Origin: Herminiimonas arsenicoxydans
Lineage (GTDB): Bacteria; Pseudomonadota; Gammaproteobacteria; Burkholderiales; Burkholderiaceae_D
Assembly: GCA_000026125.1 (NCBI GenBank)
Contig: CU207211.1
Span: forward strand, 806,001 to 870,000
Direction of reading: 5' to 3'
DNA length: 64,000 nucleotides
Positions 20,935 to 37,304 of this stretch are shown in pieces. Numbering within the stretch: position 1 is the stretch's first letter; each line of letters opens with the position of its first letter. The position numbers and the translations under genes were made by a program. The notes beneath the pieces were generated by a model. The model had not been told where the DNA came from and did no database searches. It saw nothing but the letters and a program-made list of their open reading frames with translations.

Positions 20935-21336
20935 ATGATCGATCCAGAACCAGCAGTGAGCGAATTCAAAAGCAAGAGCGGCCTGAAGCGCATTTTTTCT
21001 GCCTTCGGTTATTCCATGGCAGGTTTTAAATCTGCATGGCGCAGCGAACATGCTTTTCGCCAGGAATTATTTGTCGTCGTGATTGCAACCATTGCGGCCT
21101 TGCTGCTGCCCGTGGCTGCATGGGAGAAGCTGCTGCTGATAGGCGTGTTTGTGCTGGTGCTGATTGTGGAACTGATCAACTCGGCGATAGAAGCGGTAGT
21201 GGATCGCGTTTCGCTGGAACGCAATCCATTGTCGAAGAATGCCAAGGACTTTGGCAGTGCTGCGGTGTTGCTGACACTGACGCTGGCTGCAGCAACCTGG
21301 CTGGTTATTTTATGGCCCTTGTTCGCAGGAAAATGA
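20935..21336 (+). CDS. dgkA: Diacylglycerol kinase (prokaryotic, DgkA type)
   Basis: A 133-residue inner-membrane enzyme that phosphorylates diacylglycerol in membrane-derived oligosaccharide turnover. It has three membrane segments and the catalytic signature ELINSAIEAVVDRVS (residues ~82-96). The N-terminal segment KRIFSAFGYSMAGFKSAWRSEHAFRQE is also conserved. A hairpin terminator follows. Length fits the family (about 120-130). Confidence 0.95.
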   Translation: MIDPEPAVSEFKSKSGLKRIFSAFGYSMAGFKSAWRSEHAFRQELFVVVIATIAALLLPVAAWEKLLLIGVFVLVLIVELINSAIEAVVDRVSLERNPLSKNAKDFGSAAVLLTLTLAAATWLVILWPLFAGK

Positions 21337-21403
21337 ATATCTCTGGTGTGAACGAAGAGGTTCGTGCACTGATGATGGATAAGCTAATAACAAATGTTTA
21401 TAC

Positions 21404-21442
21404 AGGCTGCCACAAGCATCTTTGCTTATGGCAGCCTTTTTA
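21404..21442 (+). terminator. Rho-independent terminator of dgkA
   Basis: AGGCTGCCA and AAGCA pair with TTGCTT and TGGCAGCCT in an interrupted long stem followed by TTTTTATTT. Confidence 0.85.
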
Positions 21443-21588
21443 TTTCAGTGTTCCATGCATGAATTTTATCCGGCGAGGTGCATGCATGATGGGGCTGTTC
21501 ACCACTCTGCGCATGCACTGATGCAGAGACATGCATCGAACGGTTTTGGCATGCAGAACCACATCTTCTGACGAGCGATAAAAAATCT

Positions 21589-21607
21589 TTATGCGTAAAA
21601 CGCATAA
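21589..21607. promoter_or_regulatory. Candidate operator upstream of sbp
   Basis: TTATGCG and CGCATAA form a perfect 7-bp inverted repeat with a 5-base spacer, 86 bases before the sbp start. Its position suits a regulator site (for example the CysB-type protein in this window), but no match to a defined consensus is claimed. Confidence 0.35.
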
Positions 21608-21692
21608 GGATGGATGAAACAATTCGTGTCGTTTTTTTTTGCAGCAATTTAATCTTCAATCCTCAGAAACGAAATGCCCAAGGGGAAAGAAA

Positions 21693-22697
21693 ATGTTGCT
21701 CAAAAAATTGATAGCCACCGCCTTCACCATTGCACTGATTGCACCAGCAGTACATGCAGCAGAAGTCTCGTTGTTGAATGTCTCTTACGACCCAACGCGC
21801 GAGCTGTATCAGGATTTCAACAAGGCCTTCGCCAAGGAATGGAAAACAAAAACCGGCGACGACGTCAAGGCGAAAGCATCGCATGGCGGCTCGGGAAAAC
21901 AGGGGCGTGCAGTCATCGACGGCCTGGAAGCAGACGTGGTGACGCTGGCGCTAGCGTATGACATCGACGCCATTGCAGAACGCGGATTGCTCAACAAGGA
22001 TTGGCAAAAACGTCTGCCGCACAACAGCTCGCCTTACACCTCGACCATCGTGTTCCTGGTACGCAAGGGTAATCCGAAAGGCATCAAGGACTGGAGCGAT
22101 CTGGTCAAGCCGGGTGTAGCCGTCATCACACCGAATCCAAAAACATCGGGCGGTGCGCGCTGGAATCATCTGGCAGCCTGGCTGTATGCGCTGAAGCAAC
22201 CGGGTGGCAGCGAAGCCACGGCAACCGAGTTCGTCAGCAAACTGTACAAGAACGTCCCGGTGCTGGATTCCGGCGCACGCGGATCCACCACCACTTTTGT
22301 TGAGCGCGGTATCGGCGACGTTTTGCTTGCATGGGAAAACGAAGCCATCCTGGCGATCAAGGAACTCGGCCCGGACAAGGTTGAAATCGTCGCACCTTCC
22401 GTCAGCATCCTGGCTGAACCGCCAGTGGCTGTAGTGGACAAGGTGGTCGATCGTCGCGGCACACGCAAGGTGGCTGAAGCCTATCTGCAATATCTGTACT
22501 CGACAGAAGGCCAGGAAATTGCAGCGCAAAATTACTATCGTCCCATCGATGAAAAAGTGGCGAAAAAATACGCCGGACAATTTCCGAAATTGAAGCTGTA
22601 CACGATTGTCGATGTAGGTGGCTGGAGCAAGGCGCAGAAAGAGCATTTCTCTGACGGCGGTGTATTCGATAAAATCTATCAGCCAGGCAAGAAATAA
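21693..22697 (+). CDS. sbp: Sulfate ABC transporter periplasmic binding protein
   Basis: A 334-residue periplasmic sulfate (thiosulfate) receptor. A signal peptide ends at [19 protein letters not shown]; the [10 protein letters not shown] and [22 protein letters not shown] region (read in two parts) lines the sulfate site. The C-terminal half has [11 protein letters not shown] and [17 protein letters not shown]. The ATG at 21693 has AAGGGGAAAG upstream. In most relatives this gene directly precedes cysTWA; here cysT is 10.7 kb downstream in the same orientation. Confidence 0.95.
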
Positions 22698-22729
22698 TTG
22701 TCCGGATACCGGATACCGGATGCCTGGCT
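22681..22729. repeat. Inverted repeat spanning the sbp stop, with 7-base tandem copies
   Basis: AGCCAGGCA (22681-22689) is perfectly repeated in inverse at 22721-22729. Between the arms CCGGATA occurs twice and CCGGATG once, so a nested hairpin TCCGG-ATA-CCGGA is possible. It may be a transcription-end structure, though the T-run is poor. Confidence 0.45.
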
Positions 22730-22788
22730 TGACGTTTTAAAAGCCGGTGAACGTAAATGCTCTGCGTTGAGACGAATGCTTCAATTGC

Positions 22789-23157
22789 TTATTTGTACTG
22801 GCTTAAGTAAGCGAGCAGATCATCAATCTGCCTGTCATTCCCGATGCCAAAAAAGCGCATTTTATTTTCCGGCACCACATCGTTCGGCGACTTGAGAAAG
22901 GCACGCAATGATGCTTCTGACCAGACGATGCGCGAATTCATCATCGCTGCTGAATATTTGAAATCCTTTGTGGCACCAGCAGGCCTGCCGACGATGCCAT
23001 TCAATTGCGGGCCAAAGACGCCGCGTGCAGATCGTCCGACCTGATGGCAGCTTGCGCATTTTGCAAAGGCCGCCTTGCCGGCGATCACGTCACCTGCCGC
23101 ATGAGCCTGGTATCCAGCGCAACTCAATGCGAGCGCCAGTAATAGTTTCTTCTGCAT
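22789..23157 (-). CDS. Class I cytochrome c (c550/c2-like)
   Basis: A 122-residue periplasmic monohaem cytochrome: signal peptide ending YQAHA-AGDV, haem motif CASCH (Cys34, Cys37, His38), GPQLNGIVGRPAG, and the Met ligand in NKMRFFG. It resembles mitochondrial-type cytochrome c. It lies 49 bases downstream of the second permease of the putative selenium transporter, on the same strand, so it may be part of that transcript. A redox role with selenium oxyanions is conceivable but is inference only. Confidence 0.87.
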   Translation of the reverse strand: MQKKLLLALALSCAGYQAHAAGDVIAGKAAFAKCASCHQVGRSARGVFGPQLNGIVGRPAGATKDFKYSAAMMNSRIVWSEASLRAFLKSPNDVVPENKMRFFGIGNDRQIDDLLAYLSQYK

Positions 23158-23206
23158 TTCCTGTCCATGTAAAACGCTCTTTTCCCAGCGGTAGAGAACT
23201 TCCAGC

Positions 23207-24019
23207 TTACCGGGTCATCATCCGTCTGAGCAGATAGCTGAGGGCGTCGACTACGCCTACCATCAGCAGCATGGCGACGATGACGCTGGCAGCTTGCTGC
23301 ATCTGGAATAGCGATAGATGGTATTTCAGCATCTGGCCAAGGCCGCCCGCGCCCACCACACCAAGAATCGCTGCGGCGCGGATATTGTTTTCCCAGCGAT
23401 ACAGCGTGTAAGACATCATTTGCGGGCTGCATTGCGGCAGGGTTGAATAGAGAAAGGCAGCGACCGGATGAGCGCCATTCGTGCGCAAGGTTTCTTCCGG
23501 CAGGGATGGGCAGTTTTCAAATGCTTCGGCAAACAGGCGTCCCAGCACGCCGATGGTATGCAGGGCCAGGGCCAGTGTTCCTGCAAAAGGGCCCAGGCCG
23601 GCAGCAATCAGTAAAACGGAAGCCCAGACCAGTTCGGGAATGGAGCGCAGCACGTTCAATATGGATCGCGTAAGCAGTCGTGCGGCAACACCGAAACGTC
23701 CGCTGGCCGGCAAACCAAGCAGGATTCCGAAGCATGCGGCGATGAGTGTGCCGATTGCAGACATGGCCAGCGTCTCGAACGTTGCGCCGGCGATTTTCTG
23801 CAGAAAAGCGGGCGCCAGTTCGGGCGGTGCAAAGCCACGCAGGAATTCAATACTGGTACGCACAGCGTCGGCACCGAAAAATTCATGCAGCTTCAATGGC
23901 AGCGAAGCAAAGCTGGCAAACACCAGCAGCACAATGCCGGCCAGCAGTGTCAAGGTGGACCAGTGCATGGAAGGGCGTTGCGGCAAGTCCCGCCGCATCG
24001 CTTGCTGTGCCGACTTCAT
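23207..24019 (-). CDS. PhnE-like ABC transporter permease, second copy (probable selenium-oxyanion transporter)
   Basis: A 270-residue inner-membrane permease of the phosphonate/phosphite type (BPD_transp_1). Membrane segments lie near residues 20-45, 90-125, 140-165 and 235-260. The EAA-type loop includes EAFENCPSLPEETLRTNGA and the C-terminal GVVGAGGLGQMLKYHL is a PhnE signature. The ATG at 24019 overlaps the stop of the upstream permease (ATGA). The frame is open upstream to 24811, but that part is out-of-frame shadow of the first permease. With selD and mnmH nearby it is read as part of a selenium uptake system. Confidence 0.85.
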   Translation of the reverse strand: MKSAQQAMRRDLPQRPSMHWSTLTLLAGIVLLVFASFASLPLKLHEFFGADAVRTSIEFLRGFAPPELAPAFLQKIAGATFETLAMSAIGTLIAACFGILLGLPASGRFGVAARLLTRSILNVLRSIPELVWASVLLIAAGLGPFAGTLALALHTIGVLGRLFAEAFENCPSLPEETLRTNGAHPVAAFLYSTLPQCSPQMMSYTLYRWENNIRAAAILGVVGAGGLGQMLKYHLSLFQMQQAASVIVAMLLMVGVVDALSYLLRRMMTR

Positions 24020-24855
24020 GAGAGCCTCCTGCGCAGCATGGCCGATACGCCGTCCGCTGCCGCCACCAGCAGAATGAATACGATCAGCATGGTTGCCAGT
24101 TCGTCGCCCGCCATCATCTTGATGGATTCGTCCATGCGCTGGCCAAGTCCGCCTGCGCCGACAAAACCCATCACCACCGAGCCGCGTATCGCACACTCCC
24201 AGCGATAGACCGTATAGGACACCAGTTCCGAAGCAGACTCCGGCAATGCGCCGTATAAAAAGGCGCCGAGACGACCGCTGCCATTTTGCAACAGCGTATT
24301 GCATGCGCTGGCATCGGATGACTCGAGAATGTCGGCATACACTTTTCCCAGCATGCCGCAATAAGTCAGCGCGATGGCGATCACGCCGGCTGTCGGGCCA
24401 AGGCCGACAATACGCACCAGCAGCAATGCCCAGACCAGCTCGGGCACGCTGCGCAACAGGATCAGCAGCCAGCGTATGGCGTTGCGCAATATCGATGCGA
24501 GCGCCGAGACACGTCCGCTGCCCAGGCGCGAGATCGATAAACGGTCGGTCGCCAGCAGCGTCAGCGGAATCGCGCCGAGCAGCGCCAGCGTCATGCCGGC
24601 AGTCGCCATTGCCACGGTTTCCCAGCTTGCGCGCAAAACCATTTGCAGGAATTCTGCCGAATGCGCAGGCGGGAAAAAACCGGACACGAAATTCCATGTG
24701 GCCTGCAGGCTTTGGGCGTCGAACAGGATCCAGGGTTTGAACTCGGCCTGTATCAGCATCGGCCATAGAATCAGGATGAGTACTGCGCAGCCCAGGACGC
24801 GCCCACGCCATGCAGGATCGCGCCCGGCTTTGCTGACGAGTGGGGTGGTCGGCAT
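24016..24855 (-). CDS. PhnE-like ABC transporter permease, first copy (probable selenium-oxyanion transporter)
   Basis: A 279-residue permease homologous to the adjacent second copy; together they probably form the heterodimeric channel. Membrane segments occur near residues 18-36, 70-100, 125-160 and 245-265. PhnE signatures are RSVPELVWALLLVRIVGLGP and GFVGAGGLGQRMDESIK. It begins 36 bases after the ATPase gene and overlaps the next permease by four bases. Two separate permease genes rather than one is a common arrangement in this transporter family. Confidence 0.85.
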   Translation of the reverse strand: MPTTPLVSKAGRDPAWRGRVLGCAVLILILWPMLIQAEFKPWILFDAQSLQATWNFVSGFFPPAHSAEFLQMVLRASWETVAMATAGMTLALLGAIPLTLLATDRLSISRLGSGRVSALASILRNAIRWLLILLRSVPELVWALLLVRIVGLGPTAGVIAIALTYCGMLGKVYADILESSDASACNTLLQNGSGRLGAFLYGALPESASELVSYTVYRWECAIRGSVVMGFVGAGGLGQRMDESIKMMAGDELATMLIVFILLVAAADGVSAMLRRRLS

Positions 24856-24891
24856 GGTGTCTAGACTAAAAACATGAAGTGAAATGCCGCA

Positions 24892-25704
24892 TCAGCAACG
24901 TGGCATGGGATCGATGGCAGCGCTCTCTGCTGCGATACTCCCGGCACTATCGTCATTACTGTTCTGGTACAGCGCGGCGATCATCGCGTCGCTTATATCG
25001 GCGCTTGCTGCATCGAACACGATGCGGCCGTCACGCAAGCCGATAATACGCGGGAAATTTGCGCGTGCCAGCTCCACCTGATGCAGGCTGCATACCAGCG
25101 TCGCATGACGCTGTTGCGCTTCCTGCTGCAAGACTTTCAGGGTTTGCAATGCGAGGGTCGGGTCGAGCGCGGAAAGCGGTTCATCGACCAGAAAGGCTTC
25201 CGCACTGGAGATGAGTGCGCGCGCCATGCCGCAGCGCTGGCGCTCGCCGCCGGACAGGCGATCCACCCGTGCATACAGCTTGTCTTGCAGATTGAAAGGC
25301 ATCAATGCCCGATAGGCAGCGTCAGCCGCGACCGGCTTGATCAGCGAACGTATCGCCTGCCATACGCTCCATTGCGGCAGCGCACCGGCCAGGACCGCAT
25401 TCACGACGCGCTGGCGCGGCGGCAGCGGCGGTGTTTGTGGTGCGAGGAACAGACGCGCACGCATCCGGTGCCGCTCGGCACTGTCGAGCTGCCAGGGATT
25501 GTTGCCGAACATCTGCATCTCGCCTTGCACCGGTTTCAACGCACAGGCGAGCGTATGCAGCAGGCTGGTTTTACCCGCTCCCGATGGGCCGATCAATGCG
25601 ATCTGTTCGCCTTGCGCGATCGACAGCGTCAGATCGCGCAGGGCAAAGGATGACTTGGCCGCGCCACTGTGGTGTGCGCTGATTGAGTTGAGAAGAAATG
25701 TCAT
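24892..25704 (-). CDS. PhnC-like ABC transporter ATP-binding protein (probable selenium-oxyanion transporter)
   Basis: A 270-residue ATPase: Walker A GPSGAGKT (residues ~39-46), signature LSGGERQRCGMARAL, Walker B AFLVDEPLSALDP, H-loop CSLHQVELA. It differs from classical PhnC in a proline-rich Q-loop region LAPQTPPLPPRQRV and a Ser/Ala-rich C-terminal tail. It sits between the binding protein (64 bases upstream) and the two permeases. No C-P lyase genes are present, arguing against phosphonate use. Confidence 0.87.
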   Translation of the reverse strand: MTFLLNSISAHHSGAAKSSFALRDLTLSIAQGEQIALIGPSGAGKTSLLHTLACALKPVQGEMQMFGNNPWQLDSAERHRMRARLFLAPQTPPLPPRQRVVNAVLAGALPQWSVWQAIRSLIKPVAADAAYRALMPFNLQDKLYARVDRLSGGERQRCGMARALISSAEAFLVDEPLSALDPTLALQTLKVLQQEAQQRHATLVCSLHQVELARANFPRIIGLRDGRIVFDAASADISDAMIAALYQNSNDDSAGSIAAESAAIDPMPRC

Positions 25705-25768
25705 CCGTAAGAGTCGGCAGTGCTTGCAGGCGCCGCCACATTCATTGCGGCGGCGCGTATCAAGTGTG

Positions 25769-26638
25769 TTATTTCAGCAGGCCGGCGTTGCGTGCAGCAG
25801 TTTCGATGGCAGCGTAATTTTCGGCTTTGGTTGGAATGAAACGTGTGGCACGTTGCAGTTCCAGAATTTCCTTGTCCTGCGGATTGTTGGCGTCCAGTGC
25901 CAGGAACGCATCGCTCAATTTCTTGCGCACCACAGGATTCATGTCCGAGCGCACGCTCCAGTTGTAATCGTAATAGCCGGGCGTCGTATAGAACACGCGT
26001 ACCTGCTGCGGGTTGACCTTGCCGGCAGCGACCAGCTTTTCCCATACCGAAATATTCAGGACGCCTGCATCAACCTTGCCACCGGAAACTGCGGCGACCG
26101 TGGCATCGTGTGCGCCAGAGAACGCAACGCGCTTCATGTCGGTATCAGGATTGATTTTTGCAGCCAGCAAATAGGAGCGTGGCATCAAGTGGCCGGAGGT
26201 GGACGATTCCGAACCGAAGCTGAAATTCTTGCCTTTCAGGTCGCCCAGCTTGGTGATGGATTTATCGGTGGTGATAAATACCGATTTGAATTTTTCATCT
26301 TCTTCACGCTGCACCAAGGGAATGATCTTGCCGCCGCTGCGTACATTTGCCTGCACAAAGGTAAAGCCGCCGAACCAGACCATGTCGAGCTTGTTGTTGA
26401 TCAAGCCTTCGACTGAAGCGGCATAGTCCGTCACTGGCGTAAATTCAACCTTCATGCCGAGCTTTTGCTCAAGATAGTTACCAAGCGGTTTGAACTTGCG
26501 CTGCAATTCGGTTGGTGCTTCATCGGGAATGGCGGATACGCGCAATACTTGCTGCGCATGAACAGGGCTGCTCATCGCCAGTGTTGCCAGGGCGGCTGCC
26601 ATCAAGGCGCGGAATTGCGAAACGGAGTAGCGAATCAT
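25769..26638 (-). CDS. PhnD-like periplasmic binding protein, putative selenate/selenite ABC transporter receptor
   Basis: A 289-residue periplasmic binding protein: signal peptide ending SSPVHA-QQVLRVSAIPDEAPTEL, then FKPLGNYLEQKLGMKVEF, DMVWFGGFTFVQAN and SFGSESSTSGHLMPRSYLL. It belongs to the phosphonate-binding superfamily. The subgroup beginning AIPDEAPTEL is, from family knowledge, the one catalogued as a putative selenate receptor (TIGR04553) that co-occurs with selD. Here selD lies 78 bases upstream on the same strand. Ligand is inferred from context; phosphonate or phosphite remain alternatives. Confidence 0.8.
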   Translation of the reverse strand: MIRYSVSQFRALMAAALATLAMSSPVHAQQVLRVSAIPDEAPTELQRKFKPLGNYLEQKLGMKVEFTPVTDYAASVEGLINNKLDMVWFGGFTFVQANVRSGGKIIPLVQREEDEKFKSVFITTDKSITKLGDLKGKNFSFGSESSTSGHLMPRSYLLAAKINPDTDMKRVAFSGAHDATVAAVSGGKVDAGVLNISVWEKLVAAGKVNPQQVRVFYTTPGYYDYNWSVRSDMNPVVRKKLSDAFLALDANNPQDKEILELQRATRFIPTKAENYAAIETAARNAGLLK

Positions 26639-26716
26639 GGATGAACCTTTTGTAGTGAAGGAAACTGCTTGAATAATGTTAAAAATGAAGCAGGGCAGGT
26701 GGCGCCCCAGTATTTG

Positions 26717-27772
26717 CTATCTCACCTCAACGCCGGGTTTCCCCGCGCGCATTTCACCGATCACGGCGGCCTCGGCAAAGCCGTCTTTTCTGAATAATTG
26801 CAATACCTGTTCGACGGCGTCCGGTGCGCATGACACCAGCAGTCCGCCGGCAGTTTGCGGATCGGTCAGCAGCGCCTGCTGTAGCGGGCTGATGGAAGGC
26901 GCCAATGTCACTTCGTGACCGTAACCCTGCCAGTTTCTTCCGGACGCGCCGGTGATGCATCCCAGTTCGGCCAATTGCCGCACTTGCGGCAAGAGCGGAA
27001 TCAGGGACATATCCAGTTGGGCAGATAGCCCGGCGCCACGCGCCAGTTCCAGCAAATGTCCGAGTACGCCAAAACCGGTGACATCGGTCAGCGCATGCAC
27101 GCCAGCGAGTTGCGCCAGCGCCTTGCCGGGCGTATTGAGTTTGGTCGTGTTGGCGATCATGGATGCGTAACCGGCTGCATCCAGCAGGTTTTTCTTCAAT
27201 GCCGCTGACAGTACGCCGACTCCTATCGGTTTACCCAGGATCAGTTGGTCGCCGGCACGCGCACTGGCATTGCGCTTGATATGCGACGGGTGCACAAGCC
27301 CCATCACAACCAGGCCGTAAATCGGTTCGACGGAATCGATCGTATGGCCGCCGGCAATCGGAATCCCTGCCTCTGCACAGATAGCTTCGCCGCCTTTCAG
27401 TATCAGGCCTATCGTTTCCAGCGGTAATTTTCCGACCGGCATGCCGACCAGTGCGAGCGCCATGATCGGGGTGCCGCCCATCGCATACACGTCTGAAATG
27501 GCATTGGTGGCGGCAATCCGGCCGAAGTCGTAAGGATCATCGACGATGGGCATGAAAAAGTCTGTGGTGGCAATCAGCGCCTGTTCGTCGTTGAGCCGGT
27601 AGACGGCCGCATCATCGGAGGTTTCTATGCCGACCAATAATTCTTTCGGCAGGGGAAAGCCGCCTGTACTTTTCAGTATCTGCGAGAGCACGCCAGGCGC
27701 AATTTTGCAGCCGCAGCCGCCGCCGTGCGAGAATTCGGTCAGTCTGATGATGGGTGGTGTTTCTGTCGTCAT
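26717..27772 (-). CDS. selD: Selenophosphate synthase (selenide, water dikinase)
   Basis: A 351-residue enzyme that makes selenophosphate from selenide and ATP, the selenium donor for tRNA and protein. The active-site loop HGGGCGCK has Cys20 and Lys23 at the positions of E. coli Cys17 and Lys20, so it is the cysteine, not selenocysteine, form. AIRS-type motifs follow: TTDFFMPIVDDPYDFGRIAA in outline, GGHTIDS, LTDVTGFGVLGHLLE and DPQTAGGLLVSC. The ATG at 27772 is preferred over an in-frame TTG at 27778. It starts 30 bases after mnmH in the same direction. Confidence 0.96.
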   Translation of the reverse strand: MTTETPPIIRLTEFSHGGGCGCKIAPGVLSQILKSTGGFPLPKELLVGIETSDDAAVYRLNDEQALIATTDFFMPIVDDPYDFGRIAATNAISDVYAMGGTPIMALALVGMPVGKLPLETIGLILKGGEAICAEAGIPIAGGHTIDSVEPIYGLVVMGLVHPSHIKRNASARAGDQLILGKPIGVGVLSAALKKNLLDAAGYASMIANTTKLNTPGKALAQLAGVHALTDVTGFGVLGHLLELARGAGLSAQLDMSLIPLLPQVRQLAELGCITGASGRNWQGYGHEVTLAPSISPLQQALLTDPQTAGGLLVSCAPDAVEQVLQLFRKDGFAEAAVIGEMRAGKPGVEVR

Positions 27773-27802
27773 GTACAACCTGTCTTTTAAATTAGCGCCG
27801 GC

Positions 27803-28882
27803 TCAGGCGGCTGGGAAATTGTCTGCGGATTGACGCAACTGCCGGGCCGCCTGCTGGAAGCTCGCCTCGGAGATATCTGCCAGCGTGAGGGTTTGTGCCT
27901 GTTGCAATTGAATGAAATTACGCTTGATCGATTGCAGATAGCCCGGATCGTAATGCGTGCGCAGCAACTCGTCCACCAGCTCGGATGTCTGATTCGACAG
28001 CGCGAGTTGATGCCATTGTGCGATTCTTTCGCGGCCATGCAAGGGGATCAGGAAATCGAGTTGCGTATTGAGCTGCGCCGGATACGCAATAAAGTGCGCA
28101 TACTCTTCCATCAGCAAGGCAACCCGATGCGGAGTGGAAAGATGCACCGTGGTACAGGGTGAGGCACGCATTTTTTCCATCAACTGATCCGGCACCCGCA
28201 ACTTGCCTACTTTCTTGCTCTCCGCCTCGACGAAAATCGGCCGCACCGGATCGAAACCGCTTAACAATTCCCACAGCAGACTTTCAAACCGCTTCTGCGA
28301 TGGTTGCGGCGCGGCAGGCAAATCGCCCAGTACCGAGCCGCGATGCGCTGCCAGCTTTTCCAGATCCAGTACCTGCGCGCCCTGGCTTGCCAAGACTCGC
28401 AGCAGGCGACTTTTGCCGCTTCCAGTCGGGCCGCATAACACATTGAAGTGCAAGGCCTGCGGCAAAACGGCCAGTTCGGCATTCACATGGCTGCGATAGG
28501 CTTTGTACCCGCCGTCCAGTTGTGCGACCGGCCACCCGATGCGCGCCAAGATGTGCGCCATGGCGCCGCTGCGATTGCCGCCGCGCCAGCAATAAATCAG
28601 GGGTTTCCAGTTTTGCGGCTGATCGAGAAACTGGCTTTCGATATGCTGAGCGATATTTTTTGCCACCAGCACTGCCCCCAGCTTCTTCGCCTCGAATGCA
28701 CCGACCGTCTTGTACATGGTGCCAACCTGTACACGCTGTTCATTGTCGAGAACAGGGCAATTGATGGCGCCGGGAATATGGTCTTCGAGAAACTCTGCCG
28801 GACTGCGCACGTCAATGATGGCATCGAACTGCGCGAGTTGCGGTCGAAGCTCACTGAAGGAGAGTACGGCTGGGTACTTCAT
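27803..28882 (-). CDS. mnmH: tRNA 2-selenouridine synthase
   Basis: A 359-residue enzyme (SelU/YbbB) that converts 2-thiouridine at the tRNA wobble position 34 to 2-selenouridine through a geranylated intermediate, using selenophosphate from SelD. The N-terminal rhodanese domain contains the catalytic loop YCWRGGNRSG (Cys98); the C-terminal P-loop domain has GPTGSGKS (residues 151-158). It heads the minus-strand run mnmH-selD-receptor-ATPase-permeases, the most direct evidence that the transporter handles selenium. The ATG at 28882 has only a weak ribosome-binding site. Confidence 0.95.
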   Translation of the reverse strand: MKYPAVLSFSELRPQLAQFDAIIDVRSPAEFLEDHIPGAINCPVLDNEQRVQVGTMYKTVGAFEAKKLGAVLVAKNIAQHIESQFLDQPQNWKPLIYCWRGGNRSGAMAHILARIGWPVAQLDGGYKAYRSHVNAELAVLPQALHFNVLCGPTGSGKSRLLRVLASQGAQVLDLEKLAAHRGSVLGDLPAAPQPSQKRFESLLWELLSGFDPVRPIFVEAESKKVGKLRVPDQLMEKMRASPCTTVHLSTPHRVALLMEEYAHFIAYPAQLNTQLDFLIPLHGRERIAQWHQLALSNQTSELVDELLRTHYDPGYLQSIKRNFIQLQQAQTLTLADISEASFQQAARQLRQSADNFPAA

Positions 28883-29045
28883 TGTGGAGTTAGTTGGCGA
28901 ATGGAATGGCGACCATTATCGCTGATAAAGCGAAAACGCTGATTTCCATTGCGGGAAATTATCCACTGAGCAAGAACTTCCTTGTATGAAGGAACGGTAC
29001 ACTACGGGCGCTTTCATTTTTATCGCCGGATTTATTGCTCGAATC

Positions 29046-29861
29046 ATGATCATTACTATCAACGAAGACCTGCGCGCCTATATCGACCCATTAACCGAAG
29101 ATGAATACGCTGCGCTGGAACGCAGTCTGCTGTCGGAAGGCTGTCGTGATGCATTGGTATTGTGGGGCGACCTTTTGGTCGACGGTCACAATCGCTATGG
29201 CATCTGCCAGAAACATGGCTTGCCTTTCAATACTGTACAGAACCAGGCTTTTCAATCGATGGACGATGTGCATCTGTGGATGATAGACAATCATCTCGGG
29301 CGGCGCAGCGTATCGGATTTCCAGAGAGGCGTGCTCGCCTTGCGCAAGAAAGAAATTGTCTCCGCTCGTGTGGCGCAGCAGTCGCCCGCAGCATCTGCCG
29401 GTGACGCTGTGTATGCACAGGCAGAGCAAGAGTCAGTCAAAGAATCGCCCTTGAGCCGTGAAGCCGTTGCGCGCGCCGCGCGCATGAGTAGCGCGACACT
29501 GGGACAAATCGAAAAAATCCAGAAAACCGCCGCCCCGGAGCTGGTCACCGCGATCAAGTCCGGCGCCATTTCCATTAACGCCGCTGCCGCGGTCGCTTCC
29601 TTGCCGAGCGAAAAGCAGGTCGCAGCCGTAGCCGGGGGCAAGAAGGAGTTACGCCAGGTCGCAAGGCAGGTACGTGAAGCCAGATTGCCGCAGAAGCCTA
29701 AAGTTGAATTGGCGACCCCACCGGATGGCGCTTCGGCAGAGCAAGTCGAAATTTATCGCCTGAACGTCTTGCTCGCGGCAGTCACAGAAGAGCGCGATCT
29801 GTTGAAAAAGAAAGTGCAGAATCTGACGATCGCACTGGCAGAGGTACGCAGCGAACAGTAA
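29046..29861 (+). CDS. ParB N-terminal-like domain protein
   Basis: A 271-residue protein. Residues ~10-75 match the ParB/Srx-type nuclease-or-partition fold (IDPLTEDEYAALERSLLSEG, then LVDGHNRYGICQKHG), followed by DNHLGRRSVSDFQRG, a helix-turn-helix-like middle (SREAVARAARMSSATLGQIEKI) and a C-terminal coiled coil (RLNVLLAAVTEERDLLKKKV). Such stand-alone proteins are common on plasmids, prophages and integrative elements. ATG 29046 (MIITINEDLR) fits better than ATG 28986. It is divergent from mnmH. Target and function unknown. Confidence 0.75.
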   Translation: MIITINEDLRAYIDPLTEDEYAALERSLLSEGCRDALVLWGDLLVDGHNRYGICQKHGLPFNTVQNQAFQSMDDVHLWMIDNHLGRRSVSDFQRGVLALRKKEIVSARVAQQSPAASAGDAVYAQAEQESVKESPLSREAVARAARMSSATLGQIEKIQKTAAPELVTAIKSGAISINAAAAVASLPSEKQVAAVAGGKKELRQVARQVREARLPQKPKVELATPPDGASAEQVEIYRLNVLLAAVTEERDLLKKKVQNLTIALAEVRSEQ

Positions 29862-29893
29862 TGCACCACCGTGCTTCTGCGCGGCACACCATG

Positions 29894-29929
29894 TATGCAC
29901 TTTACTGCATATGTCTTTTAAGGCATAAT
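29894..29929 (+). promoter_or_regulatory. Predicted promoter with overlapping inverted repeat before the XRE gene
   Basis: TTTACT (29901-29906) and CATAAT (29924-29929) are 17 bases apart. TATGCA-CTTTAC-TGCATA (29894-29911) is a perfect 6-bp inverted repeat overlapping the -35, a layout expected of autoregulation by the downstream helix-turn-helix protein. Prediction only. Confidence 0.4.
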
Positions 29930-29960
29930 TAGCAGTTGAATCCAGATGGGGATTGGTAAT

Positions 29961-30317
29961 ATGGTGGCGAAAAAACAGGGCGCACTCGTGCCTGTGCATA
30001 CTATTGCTCGTAACAAGCCGTTAGCGTCTGATGCTATGGCGCTGGCCACCCTGAAAGACCTGCGCAAGCGCGCCGGACAGACTCAGGAAGAAATGGCTGC
30101 CGCTCTGGGCGTCGGCCAGGAAACAATCTCCCGACTGGAAAAACGCAGCGATATGCTGCTTTCGACTTTGCATCACTACGTCGAAAGCATAGGTGGCCAG
30201 CTTGCTTTAGTGGCGACCTTTCCCGATCAGCCGCCCGTGATCATCGATCACCGCGGTGACAAAAAACGCGCGCCGAAGAAACGCAGCCGGTCTGCGTCCG
30301 ATCACGGCGAGCCCTAG
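29961..30317 (+). CDS. XRE-type helix-turn-helix regulator (HigA-antitoxin-like)
   Basis: A 118-residue protein with a Cro/C1-type domain: LATLKDLRKRAGQTQEEMAAALGVGQETISRLEKRSD, read in parts, followed by LSTLHHYVESIGGQLALVATFPD, a C-terminal pattern shared with HigA-like antitoxins. The tail is strongly basic (KKRAPKKRSRS). No toxin gene is adjacent, so it is an orphan regulator. ATG 29961 has GGGGA eight bases upstream; ATG 29946 is in frame and also possible. It lies 18 bases before nspC and may regulate the polyamine genes. Confidence 0.8.
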   Translation: MVAKKQGALVPVHTIARNKPLASDAMALATLKDLRKRAGQTQEEMAAALGVGQETISRLEKRSDMLLSTLHHYVESIGGQLALVATFPDQPPVIIDHRGDKKRAPKKRSRSASDHGEP

Positions 30318-30335
30318 CTTCCCTGAATATTCCAC

Positions 30336-31433
30336 ATGATTTCTACTCCCTACTATCTGATAGACAAATCAGCCCTGCTACGCAATCTGCAAGTGATCGA
30401 TCAGGTTCGAGAACGATCTGGTGCCAAGGTTCTGCTGGCCTTGAAGTGTTTTGCCACCTGGTCGGTGTTCGATCTGATGCAGCAGTATATGGATGGCACC
30501 ACTTCTTCGTCGCTCTACGAAGTCAAGCTGGGACATCAGAAATTCGGCGGTGAAACACATGCGTACAGCGTGGCGTTTGCCGACCATGAAATTGACGAGG
30601 TCGTCGCGCACTGCGACAAGATCATCTTCAATTCGATTAGCCAGTTTCAGCGCTTTTCTTCCCACGCCGGAAATAAACCAAAAGGTTTGCGCCTGAACCC
30701 TGGCGTCAGCTGTGCCAGCTTCGATCTGGCTGATCCGGCCCGTCCGTTCAGCCGCCTGGGAGAATCGGATCCCGCACGGATTCTGTCCATCATCGATCAG
30801 CTGGATGGCGTGATGATCCACAACAATTGCGAGAACAGAGATTTCGAACGTTTCGATGCCTTGCTCACCGAGGTTGAGCAACGTTACGGAGAGATCCTGC
30901 ATAGACTGAGTTGGGTCAGTCTTGGCGGCGGCATCAGCTTCACGACGCCTGGTTATTCAATAGACGCTTTTTGCGAGCGTCTACGCCGTTTTGCGCAGAC
31001 CTACGACGTACAGGTCTACCTTGAACCCGGCGAAGCGACCGTGCGCGATACCACTACGCTGGAAGTCAGCGTAGTGGACATCGGTTTCAATGGCAAGAAT
31101 CTGGCAGTGGTGGACAGCTCCACAGAAGCGCACATGCTCGATCTCTTGATCTATCGTGAAACTGCGCCGATAAAGAATGCGCAAGGCGATCACGCGTATC
31201 AGATTTGCGGAAAAACCTGTCTGGCTGGCGACATTTTTGGCGAGGCGCGGTTTGAACAACCTCTGCAAATAGGCGATCGCATCTCAATTGGCGATGCCGG
31301 CGGCTACACCATGGTCAAGAAAAACTGGTTCAACGGGGTGCACATGCCGGCCATTGCCATCAAGGAGGCCGATGGCAGCGTACGTGCGGTACGCGAGTTT
31401 TCATTTGATGACTATGTCAGTAGCTTGTCCTGA
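30336..31433 (+). CDS. nspC: Carboxynorspermidine/carboxyspermidine decarboxylase
   Basis: A 365-residue PLP-dependent decarboxylase of the alanine-racemase fold that makes norspermidine or spermidine from the carboxy precursor. PLP Lys37 lies in LLALKCFATWSVF; conserved stretches include SVSFAD-like YSVAFADHEID, HNNCEN, LGGGISF, LEPGEA and GKTCLAGDIFG. It pairs with the dehydrogenase 39 bases downstream, giving the two-step route from aspartate semialdehyde and a diamine that bypasses S-adenosylmethionine decarboxylase and spermidine synthase. Whether the product is spermidine or norspermidine cannot be told. Confidence 0.93.
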   Translation: MISTPYYLIDKSALLRNLQVIDQVRERSGAKVLLALKCFATWSVFDLMQQYMDGTTSSSLYEVKLGHQKFGGETHAYSVAFADHEIDEVVAHCDKIIFNSISQFQRFSSHAGNKPKGLRLNPGVSCASFDLADPARPFSRLGESDPARILSIIDQLDGVMIHNNCENRDFERFDALLTEVEQRYGEILHRLSWVSLGGGISFTTPGYSIDAFCERLRRFAQTYDVQVYLEPGEATVRDTTTLEVSVVDIGFNGKNLAVVDSSTEAHMLDLLIYRETAPIKNAQGDHAYQICGKTCLAGDIFGEARFEQPLQIGDRISIGDAGGYTMVKKNWFNGVHMPAIAIKEADGSVRAVREFSFDDYVSSLS

Positions 31434-31472
31434 CGACAGAAATACAAATTTACGTGAAGGGGAGGTAATTCA

Positions 31473-32762
31473 ATGAAGCGCAATGTCCTCATTATCGGCG
31501 CGGGCGGGGTAGCGCACGTTGTGGCGCATAAATGTGCCCAGAACAATGCCGTGCTCGGTGATATTCATATCGCATCGCGCACCTTGTCCAAGTGTCGCGC
31601 CATCATCGATTCCGTCCATGAAAAAGGCAGTATGCAGCAGGATAGACACTTGCAGGCACATGCGCTTGATGCGCTGGATATCGATGCTACCAAGTTCCTG
31701 ATCCGTGCCACGCATAGCCGGATTGTCATCAATGCAGGCTCGCCGTTCCTGAACATGTCAGTGTTGCAGGCATGCATCGAGACGGGCGCAGCCTATTTGG
31801 ACACCGCCATTCACGAAGACCCCAGCAAAGTGTGCGAAACGCCCCCCTGGTATGCCAATTACGAATGGAAACGACGTCAGGCTTGCAAGGACGCCAGAGT
31901 CACCGCCGTGCTGGGTGTGGGCTTTGACCCGGGCGTGGTCAACGCCTATGCACGCTATGCGCTGGACACCTGTTTCGATAGTGTGGATTCGATCGACATC
32001 ATTGACATCAATGCGGGTAATCACGGCCGTTACTTTGCGACTAACTTCGATCCGGAAATCAATTTCCGCGAGTTCACCTCGACAGTCTGGTCCTGGGAGA
32101 ACAATGCATGGAAGGCGAATGCCATGTTCGAGCGTTCGCAAGAATGGGATATGCCGGTGACGGGCAAGAGCACCACCTACCTGACCGGGCACGATGAACT
32201 GCATTCCATGTCGCAGAATCTAGGTGTGCCGAACATTCGTTTCTGGATGAGTTTTGGCGAACACTACATCAATGTTTTCACGGTCCTCAAGAATCTGGGT
32301 TTGTTGTCCGAGCAGCCGGTGCGCACGGCACGAGGTTTGGAAGTAGTACCGCTGGAAGTCGTCAAAGCCGTACTACCCGATCCTGCCTCATTGGCAGCCG
32401 GTTACACCGGCAAGACCTGTATCGGCGATCTGATCAAGGGCGTCAAGAATGGCATTCCGCAGGAAGTGTTGATCTACAACGTCTGTGATCACAAAGTGTG
32501 TTTTGAGGAAGTGGGTAGTCAGGCCATTTCCTACACTGCCGGCGTGCCTGCCGTGGCGGCGGCCATGCTGATCGCTAATGGGACGTGGGATGTCGGCGAG
32601 ATGGTCAATGTGGAAGAGCTTGATCCGATGCCATTCATCGCCTTGATGAACCGGATGGGGCTAGTGACGCGCATCCGCGATGCACAAGGGGATAGGGTGG
32701 TCGATCCAGAGCTGGACATGGATCAGAAAGCCGTCGCAGGCAGACGCGTCAGCTATGGATGA
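31473..32762 (+). CDS. Carboxynorspermidine/carboxyspermidine dehydrogenase (saccharopine dehydrogenase family)
   Basis: A 429-residue NADPH-dependent enzyme that condenses aspartate semialdehyde with diaminopropane or putrescine. The N-terminal Rossmann motif is VLIIGAGGVAHVVAHKCAQN; conserved family stretches include VINAGSPFLNMSVLQACIETG in outline, LGVGFDPGVVNAYARYA, DINAGNHGRYFATNFDPE and AVAAAMLIANG. A very strong ribosome-binding site (GGGGAGG) precedes ATG 31473. It follows nspC as the second gene of a polyamine operon and is the last gene before the scarred intergenic region. Confidence 0.92.
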   Translation: MKRNVLIIGAGGVAHVVAHKCAQNNAVLGDIHIASRTLSKCRAIIDSVHEKGSMQQDRHLQAHALDALDIDATKFLIRATHSRIVINAGSPFLNMSVLQACIETGAAYLDTAIHEDPSKVCETPPWYANYEWKRRQACKDARVTAVLGVGFDPGVVNAYARYALDTCFDSVDSIDIIDINAGNHGRYFATNFDPEINFREFTSTVWSWENNAWKANAMFERSQEWDMPVTGKSTTYLTGHDELHSMSQNLGVPNIRFWMSFGEHYINVFTVLKNLGLLSEQPVRTARGLEVVPLEVVKAVLPDPASLAAGYTGKTCIGDLIKGVKNGIPQEVLIYNVCDHKVCFEEVGSQAISYTAGVPAVAAAMLIANGTWDVGEMVNVEELDPMPFIALMNRMGLVTRIRDAQGDRVVDPELDMDQKAVAGRRVSYG

Positions 32763-33446: not shown

Positions 33447-34316
33447 ATGTCCGTTGCCATTGCCGCTGCTGTTCCTGTCGGAAAACAAAGGGTATTCCGG
33501 GTGCTTCCCGGCTTCCATTTGTCGCTTGGCTTCACGATTTTCTATCTGAGCCTGATAGTACTGATCCCCTTGTCGGCAGTCTTTTTGAAGACTTTCACAA
33601 TGAGCTGGGATGCATTTATTACAGCCGTGACTTCCGATCGCGTGGTCGCTTCGTACAAATTGACGTTTGGTGCATCGCTATTGGCTGCCGTTTTTAATGC
33701 GATTTTTGGCGGCATCGTGGCGTGGGTGCTGGTGCGCTATACCTTCCCCGGCAAGAAAATGATCGATGCGATGGTCGATTTGCCTTTTGCCCTGCCAACC
33801 GCAGTGGCCGGCATTGCGCTGACGGCCCTGTATGCGCCCAATGGCTGGATAGGCCGCTATCTGGAAATGGTCGGCATCAAGGTCGCTTTCACCCCGCTCG
33901 GCGTGATCGTCGCCTTGACGTTCATCGGCTTGCCTTTCGTCGTGCGCACCATACAGCCGGTGCTGGAAGATGCCGAGCGCGAGCTGGAAGAGGCGGCAGT
34001 CAGTCTGGGTGCCAGTCATTGGCAAACTTTTACCAAGGTTATTTTTCCTACGGTGCTGCCGGCATTGCTGACAGGTTTTGCGCTGGCCTTTGCGCGTGCA
34101 ACCGGAGAATACGGTTCCGTCATTTTCATTGCCGGCAATATGCCGATGGTGTCGGAAATCACGCCGCTGTTCATTGTGACCAAGCTGGAGCAATACGATT
34201 ATGCCGGCGCCACCGCGATTGCCGTGGTGATGCTGCTGGCTTCGTTCCTGATGTTGCTGACGATTAATGTATTGCAGGCCTGGACGCGCAAACGCGGACA
34301 AGCGGAGAAAGTCTGA
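33447..34316 (+). CDS. cysT: Sulfate ABC transporter permease CysT (CysU)
   Basis: A 289-residue inner-membrane permease with six main hydrophobic segments. CysT hallmarks are [23 protein letters not shown] in outline, [22 protein letters not shown] (EAA loop contacting CysA) and [19 protein letters not shown]. It forms the channel with CysW. ATG 33447 is the only start that preserves the family N-terminus; the promoter must lie in the 123 bases between the IS relic and this codon. First gene of cysTWA; CysW begins two bases after its stop codon region. Confidence 0.95.
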
Positions 34317-34317
34317 T

Positions 34318-35232
34318 ATGGCCGCCATTGCCCCTCCATCTACATCTAATAACGCGTTTGTCGCCAGCGTGCCGCGCGCAGCACATGTGCCGGCCGCAAC
34401 GCTGGAGCCGGTCTGGGTGCGCAGCCTGCTGATCGGTGTTGCGCTGGCTTTTCTTGCGCTGTTTCTGTTTGTGCCGCTGATGGCGGTGTTTGCCGAAGCC
34501 CTGAAAAAAGGCTGGGATGCCTACATCGCGGCGATCCTTGAAGAAGATGCATTGTCGGCGATCAAGCTGACGCTGATTACCGCCGCGATTGCCGTACCCT
34601 TGAATCTGATATTCGGCGTGGCCGCTTCGTGGTGTATCGCCAAATTCGATTTTCGCGGAAAAAGTTTTTTGCTGACCCTGATCGATTTGCCGTTTTCGGT
34701 TTCGCCGGTGATTTCCGGTCTGATTTACGTGCTGCTGTTCGGTGCGCAAGGCTGGTTCGGCGGCTGGCTGATTGAACACAATATCAAGATCCTGTTTGCG
34801 GTACCGGGTATCGTGCTGGCCACCATCTTCGTCACTTTTCCATTCGTGGCGCGTGAATTGATCCCGCTGATGCAATCGCAGGGTAGCGAAGAGGAAGAAG
34901 CGGCGCTGGTACTGGGCGCCTCGGGCTGGAAAACCTTCTGGCATGTGACGCTGCCGAATATCAAATGGGGTTTGCTGTACGGCGTCATTCTGTGCAATGC
35001 GCGGGCGATGGGCGAATTTGGCGCAGTTTCGGTAGTTTCCGGGCACATACGCGGACAAACGAATACCATTCCGCTACAGGTTGAGATTCTGTATAACGAA
35101 TACCAGTTTTCCGCAGCATTCGCAGTCGCTTCGTTGCTGGCATTGCTGGCACTGGTTACACTGGCGCTCAAATCATTTATCGAATGGCGTTTGCGGGACA
35201 CACACGAACAGTTTCAGGAGCAGGGATCATGA
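34318..35232 (+). CDS. cysW: Sulfate ABC transporter permease CysW
   Basis: A 304-residue permease with six hydrophobic segments, partner of CysT. Typical are [21 protein letters not shown] in parts, [22 protein letters not shown] (EAA loop) and [24 protein letters not shown] 34318 is two bases beyond the cysT stop, giving tight coupling; the frame is open to 34267 but that lies inside cysT. A ~35-residue Ala/Pro-rich N-terminal extension precedes the first membrane segment. Confidence 0.95.
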
Positions 35233-36296
35233 GTATCGAAGTTAAAAACATCAACAAGAAATTCGGCAATTTTGTCGCCCTCAACGATGTATCGCTGGAA
35301 TTTCCAGCCGGTGAATTGACGGCATTGCTCGGGCCTTCCGGCTGTGGCAAGACAACCTTGTTGCGCATCATCGCGGGTCTGGAGCAGCCGGATCACGGCC
35401 AGGTGCTGCTGGACGGCGAAGATGCATCGGCGCGCCATGTGCGTGAGCGTCAGGTCGGCTTTGTGTTCCAGCATTACGCCTTGTTCAAGCACATGACGGT
35501 GTTTGAAAACATCGCCTTTGGCTTGCGCGTGCGTCCCGCAGCAACGCGTCCTTCCGAATCGGTGATCAAGGAAAAGGTCACCAAGCTGCTCGAACTGGTG
35601 CAGCTCGACTGGCTGGCCGATCGCTATCCGCCGCAATTGTCCGGCGGTCAGCGTCAGCGGATTGCACTGGCGCGCGCATTGGCAGTCGAGCCGCGCGTGC
35701 TGTTGCTGGACGAACCGTTCGGTGCGCTGGATGCAAAAGTACGCAAGGAATTGCGCCGCTGGTTGCGCCGTCTGCATGACGAATTGCATGTCACCAGCAT
35801 TTTCGTCACCCACGATCAGGAAGAGGCGCTGGAAGTCGCGGATCAAATCGTGCTGATGAACAAGGGTCATGTCGAGCAGATCGGTGCGCCCAAGGATGTC
35901 TACAACAATCCGGCTTCGCCATTTGTCTATGGTTTCCTCGGTAACGTGAATCTGTTTCGCGGTCGCGTGCATGAAGGCGTGCTGCAATCATCGGGCATTG
36001 CGTTCGATGCGCCGGATCATGCAAAAACGCAGGATGCCCGGGGCATCGGCTATGTGCGTCCGCACGATCTGGAAGTCGATCGCTACACTTCCGGCGCGGA
36101 AGGCATCGTGGTGCAGTTGCGCCGCGCGCATGCCATCGGCCCGCTGGCGCAACTCGAACTGGAACGCGACGACAACGGCGAGTTGATCGAAGCAGTGATT
36201 TCAAATGAACGCTTTGGTTTGTTGAAACTGAAGGAAGGCGAAACGCTGGTGGTACGTCCCAAACGTCTGCAGGTATTTGTCGACGATTCGATCTGA
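35229..36296 (+). CDS. cysA: Sulfate/thiosulfate ABC transporter ATP-binding protein CysA
   Basis: A 355-residue ATPase that powers sulfate import. Walker A GPSGCGKT, signature [15 protein letters not shown], Walker [14 protein letters not shown]-loop [10 protein letters not shown]; the C-terminal TOBE region includes [13 protein letters not shown]. Its ATG overlaps the cysW stop (ATGA). It completes the transporter together with the distant sbp gene. The CysB-type regulator follows after 81 bases. Confidence 0.96.
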
Positions 36297-36377: not shown

Positions 36378-37304
36378 ATGAATTTTCAGCAATTACGATC
36401 GATACGCGAAACCGCGCGTTGCGGCTTTAATCTGACCGAGGTGGCGAACGTGCTGTTTACGTCCCAGCCCGGCGTGAGTCGTCAAATACGCGAGCTGGAG
36501 GAAGAGCTGGGCGTCGATATTTTCGAGCGCAACGGCAAGCGCCTGACAGGTCTGACCGATCCCGGTCGCGGCATTCTGACGATCATCGATCGCTTGTTGC
36601 TGGAAGCGGAAAACCTGCAGCGCGCCAGCCAGGAATATGCCGGACAGGAAATCGGTACGCTGGCTGTGGCCACCACCCATACGCAGGCGCGCTACATGCT
36701 GCCGGAAGTCGTGCAGGCATTTCGCGCCGAGTTCCCGAAAGTACGCATCGCCTTGCAGCAGAGTTCGCCGGAACATATTGCCGAATGGGTATTGTCGGGC
36801 AAGGCGGATATCGGGATTGCCACCGAGGGTTTGAGCCAGTTTGAAGATCTGGTTTCCTTTCCCTGCTATCGCTGGCACCATGCGATTGTAGTGCCGCAAG
36901 GGCATGCCTTGTTGTCGCATGCGCCGGTCACGCTGGAAGCGCTGGCAAAATATCCATTGATTACCTACGATCTCGGTTTTACCGGTCGCGGACATATCGA
37001 TGATGCATTTAAAAGTGCCGATATCGCCCCCGACATCGTATTGACGGCCATGGACTCGGACGTGATTCAGCAATATGTGTCGCTGGGTCTGGGCGTGGGC
37101 ATAGTCGCCTCGATGGCAGTGCAGCACAACGGCAGCCACGGCCTGGCAGTCATCGATGGATCGCATCTTTTTGCGCAGAATGTGACGCGTCTGGCAGTAC
37201 GTCGCGGCGCCTATCTGCGGCAATATACCTATAGCTTCATTCAACAGTTTGCACCGGAATTGACGCGTGCCGATATCGACAGGGCGCTGAAACCGGCTGC
37301 GTAA
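36378..37304 (+). CDS. cysB: CysB/Cbl-type LysR family regulator of sulfur assimilation
   Basis: A 308-residue LysR-type activator. The N-terminal helix-turn-helix (NFQQLRSIRETARCGFNLTE, then VLFTSQPGVSRQIRELEEELG) is the CysB form, and the effector domain has LAVATTHTQARYMLPEVV, the N-acetylserine/sulfate-binding segment. It most likely activates cysTWA and sbp under sulfur limitation. Distinguishing CysB from its close paralogue Cbl is not possible here. It lies directly downstream of cysA on the same strand, and a hairpin terminator follows. Confidence 0.92.
   Translation: MNFQQLRSIRETARCGFNLTEVANVLFTSQPGVSRQIRELEEELGVDIFERNGKRLTGLTDPGRGILTIIDRLLLEAENLQRASQEYAGQEIGTLAVATTHTQARYMLPEVVQAFRAEFPKVRIALQQSSPEHIAEWVLSGKADIGIATEGLSQFEDLVSFPCYRWHHAIVVPQGHALLSHAPVTLEALAKYPLITYDLGFTGRGHIDDAFKSADIAPDIVLTAMDSDVIQQYVSLGLGVGIVASMAVQHNGSHGLAVIDGSHLFAQNVTRLAVRRGAYLRQYTYSFIQQFAPELTRADIDRALKPAA

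Follow-up and report, generated by a model that had tools for sequence, protein, structure and literature searches.

The stretch analysed here, called the window throughout, comprises 64,000 nucleotides of Herminiimonas arsenicoxydans (contig CU207211.1, positions 806,001 to 870,000), whose genome is a single contig of 3,424,307 bases with Herminiimonas and other Oxalobacteraceae as its nearest named relatives. At window positions 23207-28882, six open genes on the minus strand follow one another in the order mnmH-selD-receptor-ATPase-permease-permease, and our re-check of the open reading frames reproduced exactly the intergenic gaps that an earlier note on this DNA had given (30, 78, 64, 36 and -4 bases, from mnmH onward). 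The first gene, mnmH (27803..28882, minus strand; 359 aa), encodes a tRNA 2-selenouridine(34) synthase with a Pfam rhodanese domain, which scores 518 bits against NF008752 (cut-off 266) and 366 bits against TIGR03167 (cut-off 219.75). It is followed by selD (26717..27772, minus strand), encoding a selenide, water dikinase of 351 aa when the ATG at 27772 is taken as the start, as we did, instead of the upstream in-frame TTG at 27778 at which the mechanical open reading frame begins. SelD reaches 433.8 bits against TIGR00476 (cut-off 125), and its GGGCGCK motif, presumably of importance for the function of this protein, carries Cys. The third gene (25769..26638, minus strand) encodes a periplasmic receptor of 289 aa, a predicted selenium-oxyanion binder that matches the NCBIfam family TIGR04553 ('putative selenate' receptor) over the whole profile length with 402.7 bits (cut-off 250), whereas it stays below the cut-off of the PhnD model TIGR03431 (167.7 bits; cut-off 261.1). 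The remaining genes, likewise on the minus strand, encode a PhnC-like ABC transporter ATPase (24892..25704; 270 aa; Pfam ABC_tran) that fails the PhnC model TIGR02315 (180.5 bits; cut-off 266.1) and two PhnE-like permeases, the first of which (24016..24855; 279 aa) fails the PhnE model TIGR01097 (191.3 bits; cut-off 216.7), while the second (23207..24019; 270 aa), whose start overlaps the first by 4 bases, passes it (240 bits, scanned from 24013 instead of 24019).

The six genes likely share one transcript. We rate this no more firmly because a terminator-like hairpin with a T run (26691..26709, minus strand), a putative partial terminator or attenuator, lies directly after the selD stop codon, though such hairpins are not enriched in the region (9, compared with a mean of 7.8 in shuffled sequences). 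An Rfam search of window positions 21000-31000 returned no selenium riboswitch or other known RNA at the gathering threshold, and tandem repeats, sought at 22000-30000, were absent from that interval.

We consider it probable that this operon is a selenium uptake-to-tRNA unit, with selenite as the most likely ligand of its transporter. The receptor would bind an oxyanion of selenium in the periplasm, with selenite (HSeO3-/SeO3 2-) the likeliest one, and pass it on to an importer made of two permeases and one ATPase; the presence of a receptor suggests import as the direction of transport. Thiols in the cytoplasm, which are able to convert selenite to selenide, may perform this reduction here; the operon contains no dedicated reductase. 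In keeping with the roles of their families, SelD would then turn selenide into selenophosphate, and MnmH would exchange the sulfur of 2-thiouridine for selenium at wobble position 34 of the tRNA. That selenium is the cargo of the transporter we hold, from the genomic context, with considerable confidence; selenium import as such is well supported by that context, and the ligand is a prediction.

A profile search for SelA in the genome gave no match, the best tRNA-Sec candidate (Rfam RF01852) remained under threshold (44.1 bits; threshold 47), and so did the best SenB candidate (45.9 bits; cut-off 300). MnmH is therefore the only SelD client found, in searches that covered SelA, SenB and tRNA-Sec and left out SelB and SenA. 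SelD and MnmH, both over cut-off and adjacent, together make up the selenouridine trait; the selenocysteine trait was not detected, with SelA missing, tRNA-Sec sub-threshold and SelB outside the search. With uptake at one end and the product at the other, the operon appears complete in itself. The earlier note had proposed precisely this path, from import via SelD to MnmH, and it is supported by the family score of the receptor, by the co-occurrence with SelD described below and by MnmH being the only client found. Its statement that no C-P lyase is present extends from the window to the whole genome, where PhnJ (PF06007) had 0 matches while an E. coli control was positive. The transporter belongs to the same class as PhnCDE of the E. 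coli type, and one of its permeases passes as PhnE, but it differs from that system in that its receptor and ATPase fail the PhnD and PhnC cut-offs and in that the genome lacks PhnJ.

The association of the receptor family with selenium genes was followed in a class sample of 369 genomes and an order sample of 155 genomes, with at least four genomes common to both and presence or absence of SelD judged by score cut-off alone. In the class sample, 15 of the 369 genomes encode a receptor over the cut-off, all with at least 347 bits, the next relative scoring 239.7. SelD was found in every one of these 15 genomes as compared to 72/354 others (Fisher 1.4e-10), MnmH in 9/15 compared to 53/354, and SelA in 4/15 compared to 12/354. 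The receptor and SelD genes lie less than 13 kb apart in nine of the 15, one of the nine (G209) being a SelD fragment split over two contigs. In the order sample, SelD occurs in 31 of 32 receptor genomes and in 84 of the 123 other genomes (Fisher 3e-4), and SenB is present in 20/32 and 26/123, respectively (Fisher 1.4e-5). The sole SelD-less receptor genome (G370) has a senB gene cut off at the contig end, which makes a missing neighbour plausible. For comparison, where the best relative reaches only 121-240 bits, SelD is present in just 7 of 24 genomes, a control for the association. The receptor thus behaves as a full-length member of TIGR04553 whose co-occurrence with selD agrees with the family name, both in the sampled genomes and at the locus itself, where selD and mnmH are adjacent. 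The family is itself a prediction, however: its name says selenate where the pocket suggests selenite, and it also takes in phosphite binders.

Gene neighbourhoods point in the same direction. Among 80 named relatives, counted within the fetched flank, a selenium-specific gene lies near the transporter in 37. The neighbours are mnmH and selD in 14/80, selD together with senB, egtB/senA and egtD in 13/80, and selD with egtB- and egtD-type genes in 10/80. Relatives of the transporter thus sit inside or near selenoneine (senABC) clusters, from which the present operon differs in that the genome has no SenB over cut-off and pairs SelD with MnmH. Receptors of distant members, with about 36% identity, are found inside true selenoneine clusters; SenA passes its cut-off within 7 kb of the receptor in loci L131, L132 and L135, accompanied by SenB and a fusion of the NADH-dehydrogenase-SelD type (the fusion domain was scanned in L131 and L133). 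In closer members, SenA passes its cut-off in L137, about 6 kb from the receptor, and in L144, likewise within 7 kb, while the SenA homologues of L086 and L146 are EgtB by NCBI cut-offs. Gene order varies considerably, from mnmH-ATPase-fused permease-receptor-selD in Sphaerotilus and senB-selD-receptor-ATPase-permeases in L145 to a receptor divergent from selD, with mnmH beyond selD, in L147. As the selenium content is kept while the order is shuffled, this argues for function over frozen synteny. Besides, three Duganella/Pseudoduganella loci (L087, L089 and L096) contain about 4 kb of other DNA between the ATPase gene and the permease genes. A palindrome, GCTAT(G/C)ATAGC, occurs upstream of the receptor gene in 15 of the 80 named loci (e.g. 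at about -67 in L077) and is probably an extended -10 promoter; the examined sequence preceding the receptor gene and mnmH in the window lacks it.

The best matches of the window receptor in the PDB are PhnD1 proteins of marine picocyanobacteria, namely 7s6g (201 bits) and 5lq5 (167 bits). Both are themselves members of TIGR04553 by NCBIfam score (338 and 302 bits, respectively), and PhnD1 of strain CC9311 bears the NCBI name 'putative selenate', whereas two PtxB proteins (PDB 5O2J and 5JVB) fall under the cut-off (163 and 150 bits). In a FastTree phylogeny, PhnD1 groups with the selenoneine-linked receptors (clade B; support 0.998), the whole family being supported at 0.943; support is low (0.206) for the deep branching order of three lineages, namely the window clade, PhnD1 together with clade B, and Sphaerotilus. 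The branch of L025, a translation of 1 residue, is meaningless in this tree, and the sequence was left out of the pocket and signature alignments. Four residues (I37, V69, W88 and Q110 in window numbering) form a signature common to 101 of 101 sequences from clade A, clade B and PhnD1; the 17 outgroup sequences lack V69 altogether, and I37, W88 and Q110 are each found in a single one of them. Position 226, Asn in the window receptor, is Asn, Gln or His within the family, as opposed to Val or Pro in the outgroups. The earlier note had opposed a phosphonate receptor of the PhnD type to a selenium receptor. The window receptor indeed falls outside PhnD, but the opposition does not hold as such, as phosphite-binding PhnD1 proteins belong to the same family.

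The pocket of the window receptor is lined by D39, Y72, T93, S145-S148, H177, N195, D224 and Y225. All residues for which the accessible part of the 7S6G report describes contacts to ligand, cap or water are identical in it, so that it has both these residues and the four signature residues in common with the PhnD1 structures (PDB 7S6G, 5LQ5 and 5LQ8). 5LQ5 differs at two water-binding positions (Ser at T93 and Asn at S145), as do many members of clade B. On the other hand, PhnD1 and its PhnDCE system have been studied as a phosphorus transporter, and its published neighbour is tesA instead of a selenium gene. The phosphite-coordinating residues of PtxB-type receptors and their Tyr cap are present as well (Y72, S146, T147, S148, H177 and Y225). 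PtxB of the PtxABC system belongs to the same superfamily and has the STS-H motif and the capping Tyr in common with the window receptor; it differs in its sub-cut-off TIGR04553 score, in a Gln at position 224, where the window receptor has Asp, and in its linkage to ptxD.

Selenite is pyramidal, carries a lone pair at its apex and is present mostly as HSeO3- at neutral pH, and phosphite resembles it; at the same pH, selenate, with its four oxygens, is fully ionised. Import of selenate, followed by reduction through the enzymes of sulfate assimilation, would agree with the existing NCBI family name and with the fact that selenate is a common oxidised form of selenium, yet we regard it as unlikely. 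According to the accessible part of PMC10284923, the source of the PhnD1 binding data used here, affinities are 0.05-4.3 uM for phosphite, 7-182 uM for phosphate and, where binding was seen, 17-109 uM for methylphosphonate. Phosphite was preferred over phosphate 6- to about 3,600-fold, i.e. at least 6-fold by every PhnD1 of Table 1 there, and in the proteins assayed with both ligands, the affinity for methylphosphonate fell short of that for phosphite by a factor of 6 to over 2,000. Such a pocket prefers three oxygens and a small apex, which speaks against a four-oxygen anion, though 7S6G was crystallised with four-oxygen phosphate. In addition, an Asp accepts a hydrogen bond from the protonated ligand in both structures, as far as their reports are accessible (D205 in 5LQ5 and D203 in 7S6G). 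Its counterpart in the window receptor, D224, would favour a protonated ligand over a fully ionised one; some picocyanobacterial PhnD1 proteins reportedly have Asn at this position. Besides, the sulfate importer encoded in the same window (Sbp, CysT, CysW and CysA) could carry selenate. Because the PhnD1 pocket favours phosphite, a selenite look-alike, and the Asp suits a protonated ligand, we lean towards selenite over selenate, provided that selenium is the cargo. Of the earlier proposal of a selenium oxyanion importer, the import itself is thus supported by context, while the catalogued ligand, selenate, is less favoured on pocket grounds than selenite. A commentary on selenoneine biosynthesis likewise names selenite as the selenium source. 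The thiosulfate receptor of a Pseudomonas reportedly failed to bind selenite.

A transporter for phosphite or phosphate that lies beside selD and mnmH by chance or through shared regulation is, in our view, rather improbable, although several observations speak for it and thereby weigh against selenium. The characterised members, i.e. the picocyanobacterial PhnD1 proteins, bind phosphite with the affinities given above, and phosphate, and the pocket is conserved. In a thermal-shift screen of four PhnD1 proteins with sources of C, N, S and P and with trace metals, only phosphorus-containing mixtures were stabilising (PMC10284923), a result that may or may not count against selenium, depending on whether the compounds included it. 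The core pocket residues also occur in sub-cut-off relatives that do not strongly track SelD, and the pocket therefore indicates a small oxyanion and is not proof of selenium. One sub-cut-off relative, the L128 receptor of Burkholderia vietnamiensis G4 (221 bits, just under the cut-off), adjoins an annotated phosphonate dehydrogenase. The L128 locus (plasmid pBVIE02, 5926-10040) encodes, in addition to this receptor, 41% identical to that of the window, an ATPase and a permease, with transposases alongside; it may represent a mobile unit for phosphite whose receptor is closely related to the selenium family.

Against phosphite stands the association with selenium genes, which is seen in two receptor clades and in several arrangements. 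Moreover, Synechococcus WH8102 and MITS9220, which bear characterised members, reportedly fail to grow on phosphite, and growth of Prochlorococcus MIT9301 on phosphite is credited in the same paper to ptxD beside a second transporter. Finally, the present genome already contains an apparent phosphite operon at another locus (L149:5117-9472; genome about 3,172,100-3,176,500), composed of genes for an ATPase-like protein, PtxB, a permease-like protein and PtxD, along with one gene of LysR size. Compared with a Pseudomonas plasmid, the receptor shares 63% identity with the PtxB-type receptor encoded there and the dehydrogenase 56% with the PtxD. Among solved structures, the dehydrogenase is most closely related to phosphite dehydrogenases; the ATPase and permease were recognised by similarity to the window transporter genes only. 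The window operon itself contains no dehydrogenase (ptxD), which sits at this other locus with its own PtxB. As this apparent PtxB/PtxD operon exists elsewhere in the genome, the window transporter is unlikely to be a second phosphite importer.

The selenium reading faces further objections. Among the 80 named relatives, 21 have egtB-/egtD-type genes only and one has egtD alone, none of which is selenium-specific, and a further 21 loci show no selenium gene in the fetched flank. Thirteen of the latter genomes were examined, and all 13 carry SelD elsewhere (17/17 in all genomes examined). Four of four Rhodobacterales plasmid loci lack an annotated selenium gene within 8 kb. The Fisher tests operate on genome counts and ignore phylogeny, and SelD is somewhat more frequent in genomes with sub-cut-off relatives only (39/139) than in those without any (33/215; p 0.0045), and the association may to some extent be a general one. 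The co-occurrence may also be partly circular in case the TIGR04553 cut-off was set from selenium context. Lastly, the matches listed in our literature search, which had most subscription journals outside its reach, included no test of selenium binding or transport by this family.

Uptake of an organic selenium compound, e.g. a selenosugar, a breakdown product of selenoneine or a methylated selenium acid, would be in line with the selenoneine genes that neighbour the transporter in many relatives. SelD needs inorganic selenide, however, and since the pocket is small and Tyr-capped and PhnD1 binds methylphosphonate far worse than phosphite, bulky ligands are unlikely; we therefore regard this option as highly improbable. 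Even fainter is the chance that a different oxyanion, for instance arsenite or arsenate, is the cargo. The host resembles an arsenic-tolerant Herminiimonas, the genus of its nearest named relatives, and AioX and ArrX are solved relatives of the receptor. They are distant ones, though (43-66 bits versus 201 for PhnD1), and the operon holds no arsenic gene, the family tracking SelD instead.

If selenium is indeed the cargo, the reading may extend to the picocyanobacteria. All 97 picocyanobacterial genomes of the Cyanorak set keep phnD1, a retention whose purpose is called paradoxical in the accessible part of PMC10284923. MED4 and MIT9313, like WH8102 and MITS9220, cannot use phosphite, and the PhnDCE system is not induced by phosphorus starvation in the studies cited there. 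A 2005 survey, as far as accessible, described Prochlorococcus and Synechococcus SelD with an NADH-dehydrogenase-like extension, i.e. the same kind of fusion that we find beside clade B receptors, and listed cyanobacteria among the bearers of ybbB (mnmH); the accessible part of a 2016 survey mentions three Prochlorococcus genomes in which SelD occurs without any known selenium trait. We tentatively suggest, though with more doubt than conviction, that picocyanobacterial PhnDCE could be an importer of selenite instead of phosphorus and that its phosphite binding could be an accident of a pyramidal XO3 pocket. If true, this would explain why PhnDCE is retained although most picocyanobacteria have no known phosphite or phosphonate pathway, and the family would represent the dedicated system for selenium uptake that has long been missing for many bacteria, very abundant marine phototrophs among them. 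According to two reviews (2022 and 2026), a high-affinity transport system for selenium has yet to be identified (in prokaryotes, in the case of the later one), and a 2024 study states that no organism is known to possess a selenium transporter that is both dedicated and specific.

The label TIGR04553 pre-exists at NCBI, and the window unit is a further member of a catalogued, unproven kind. Within the literature searched, the identity of PhnD1 with TIGR04553, the argument for selenite and the selenoneine context are new. The string 'selen' is absent from the main text of the two PhnD1 structure papers, the accessible literature that names a 'selenate ABC transporter' tests no such protein, and 'TIGR04553' goes unmentioned in what we could search. 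The comparison joins two separate literatures, the NCBI naming of selenate receptors and the structure papers that treat members as phosphate or phosphite proteins. The window unit is a concrete candidate selenium importer whose predicted ligand is defined (selenite over selenate) and whose relatives include proteins of solved structure. Viral contigs, scanned with a PhnD1 pattern, yielded no relative.

As for the surroundings of the operon, the last permease gene is followed, after 49 bases, by a small c-type cytochrome gene (22789-23157, minus strand). Its product was considered as a selenite reductase and dismissed, as a tblastn search of the 80 named loci showed no such gene close to the transporter. 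Further out, the genes for sulfate uptake are split into a receptor gene (21639-22697, plus strand) and cysT-cysW-cysA (33447-36296, plus strand), 10.7 kb apart, the latter followed by a cysB-like regulator gene (36378-37304). Between them lie two carboxynorspermidine genes, small genes that look like regulators, and the selenium operon, as if all this had been inserted into a sulfate uptake locus. The two carboxynorspermidine genes (30336-32762, plus strand) encode a decarboxylase-like and a synthase-like protein, which score 407 (cut-off 409) and 449 (cut-off 800), respectively.

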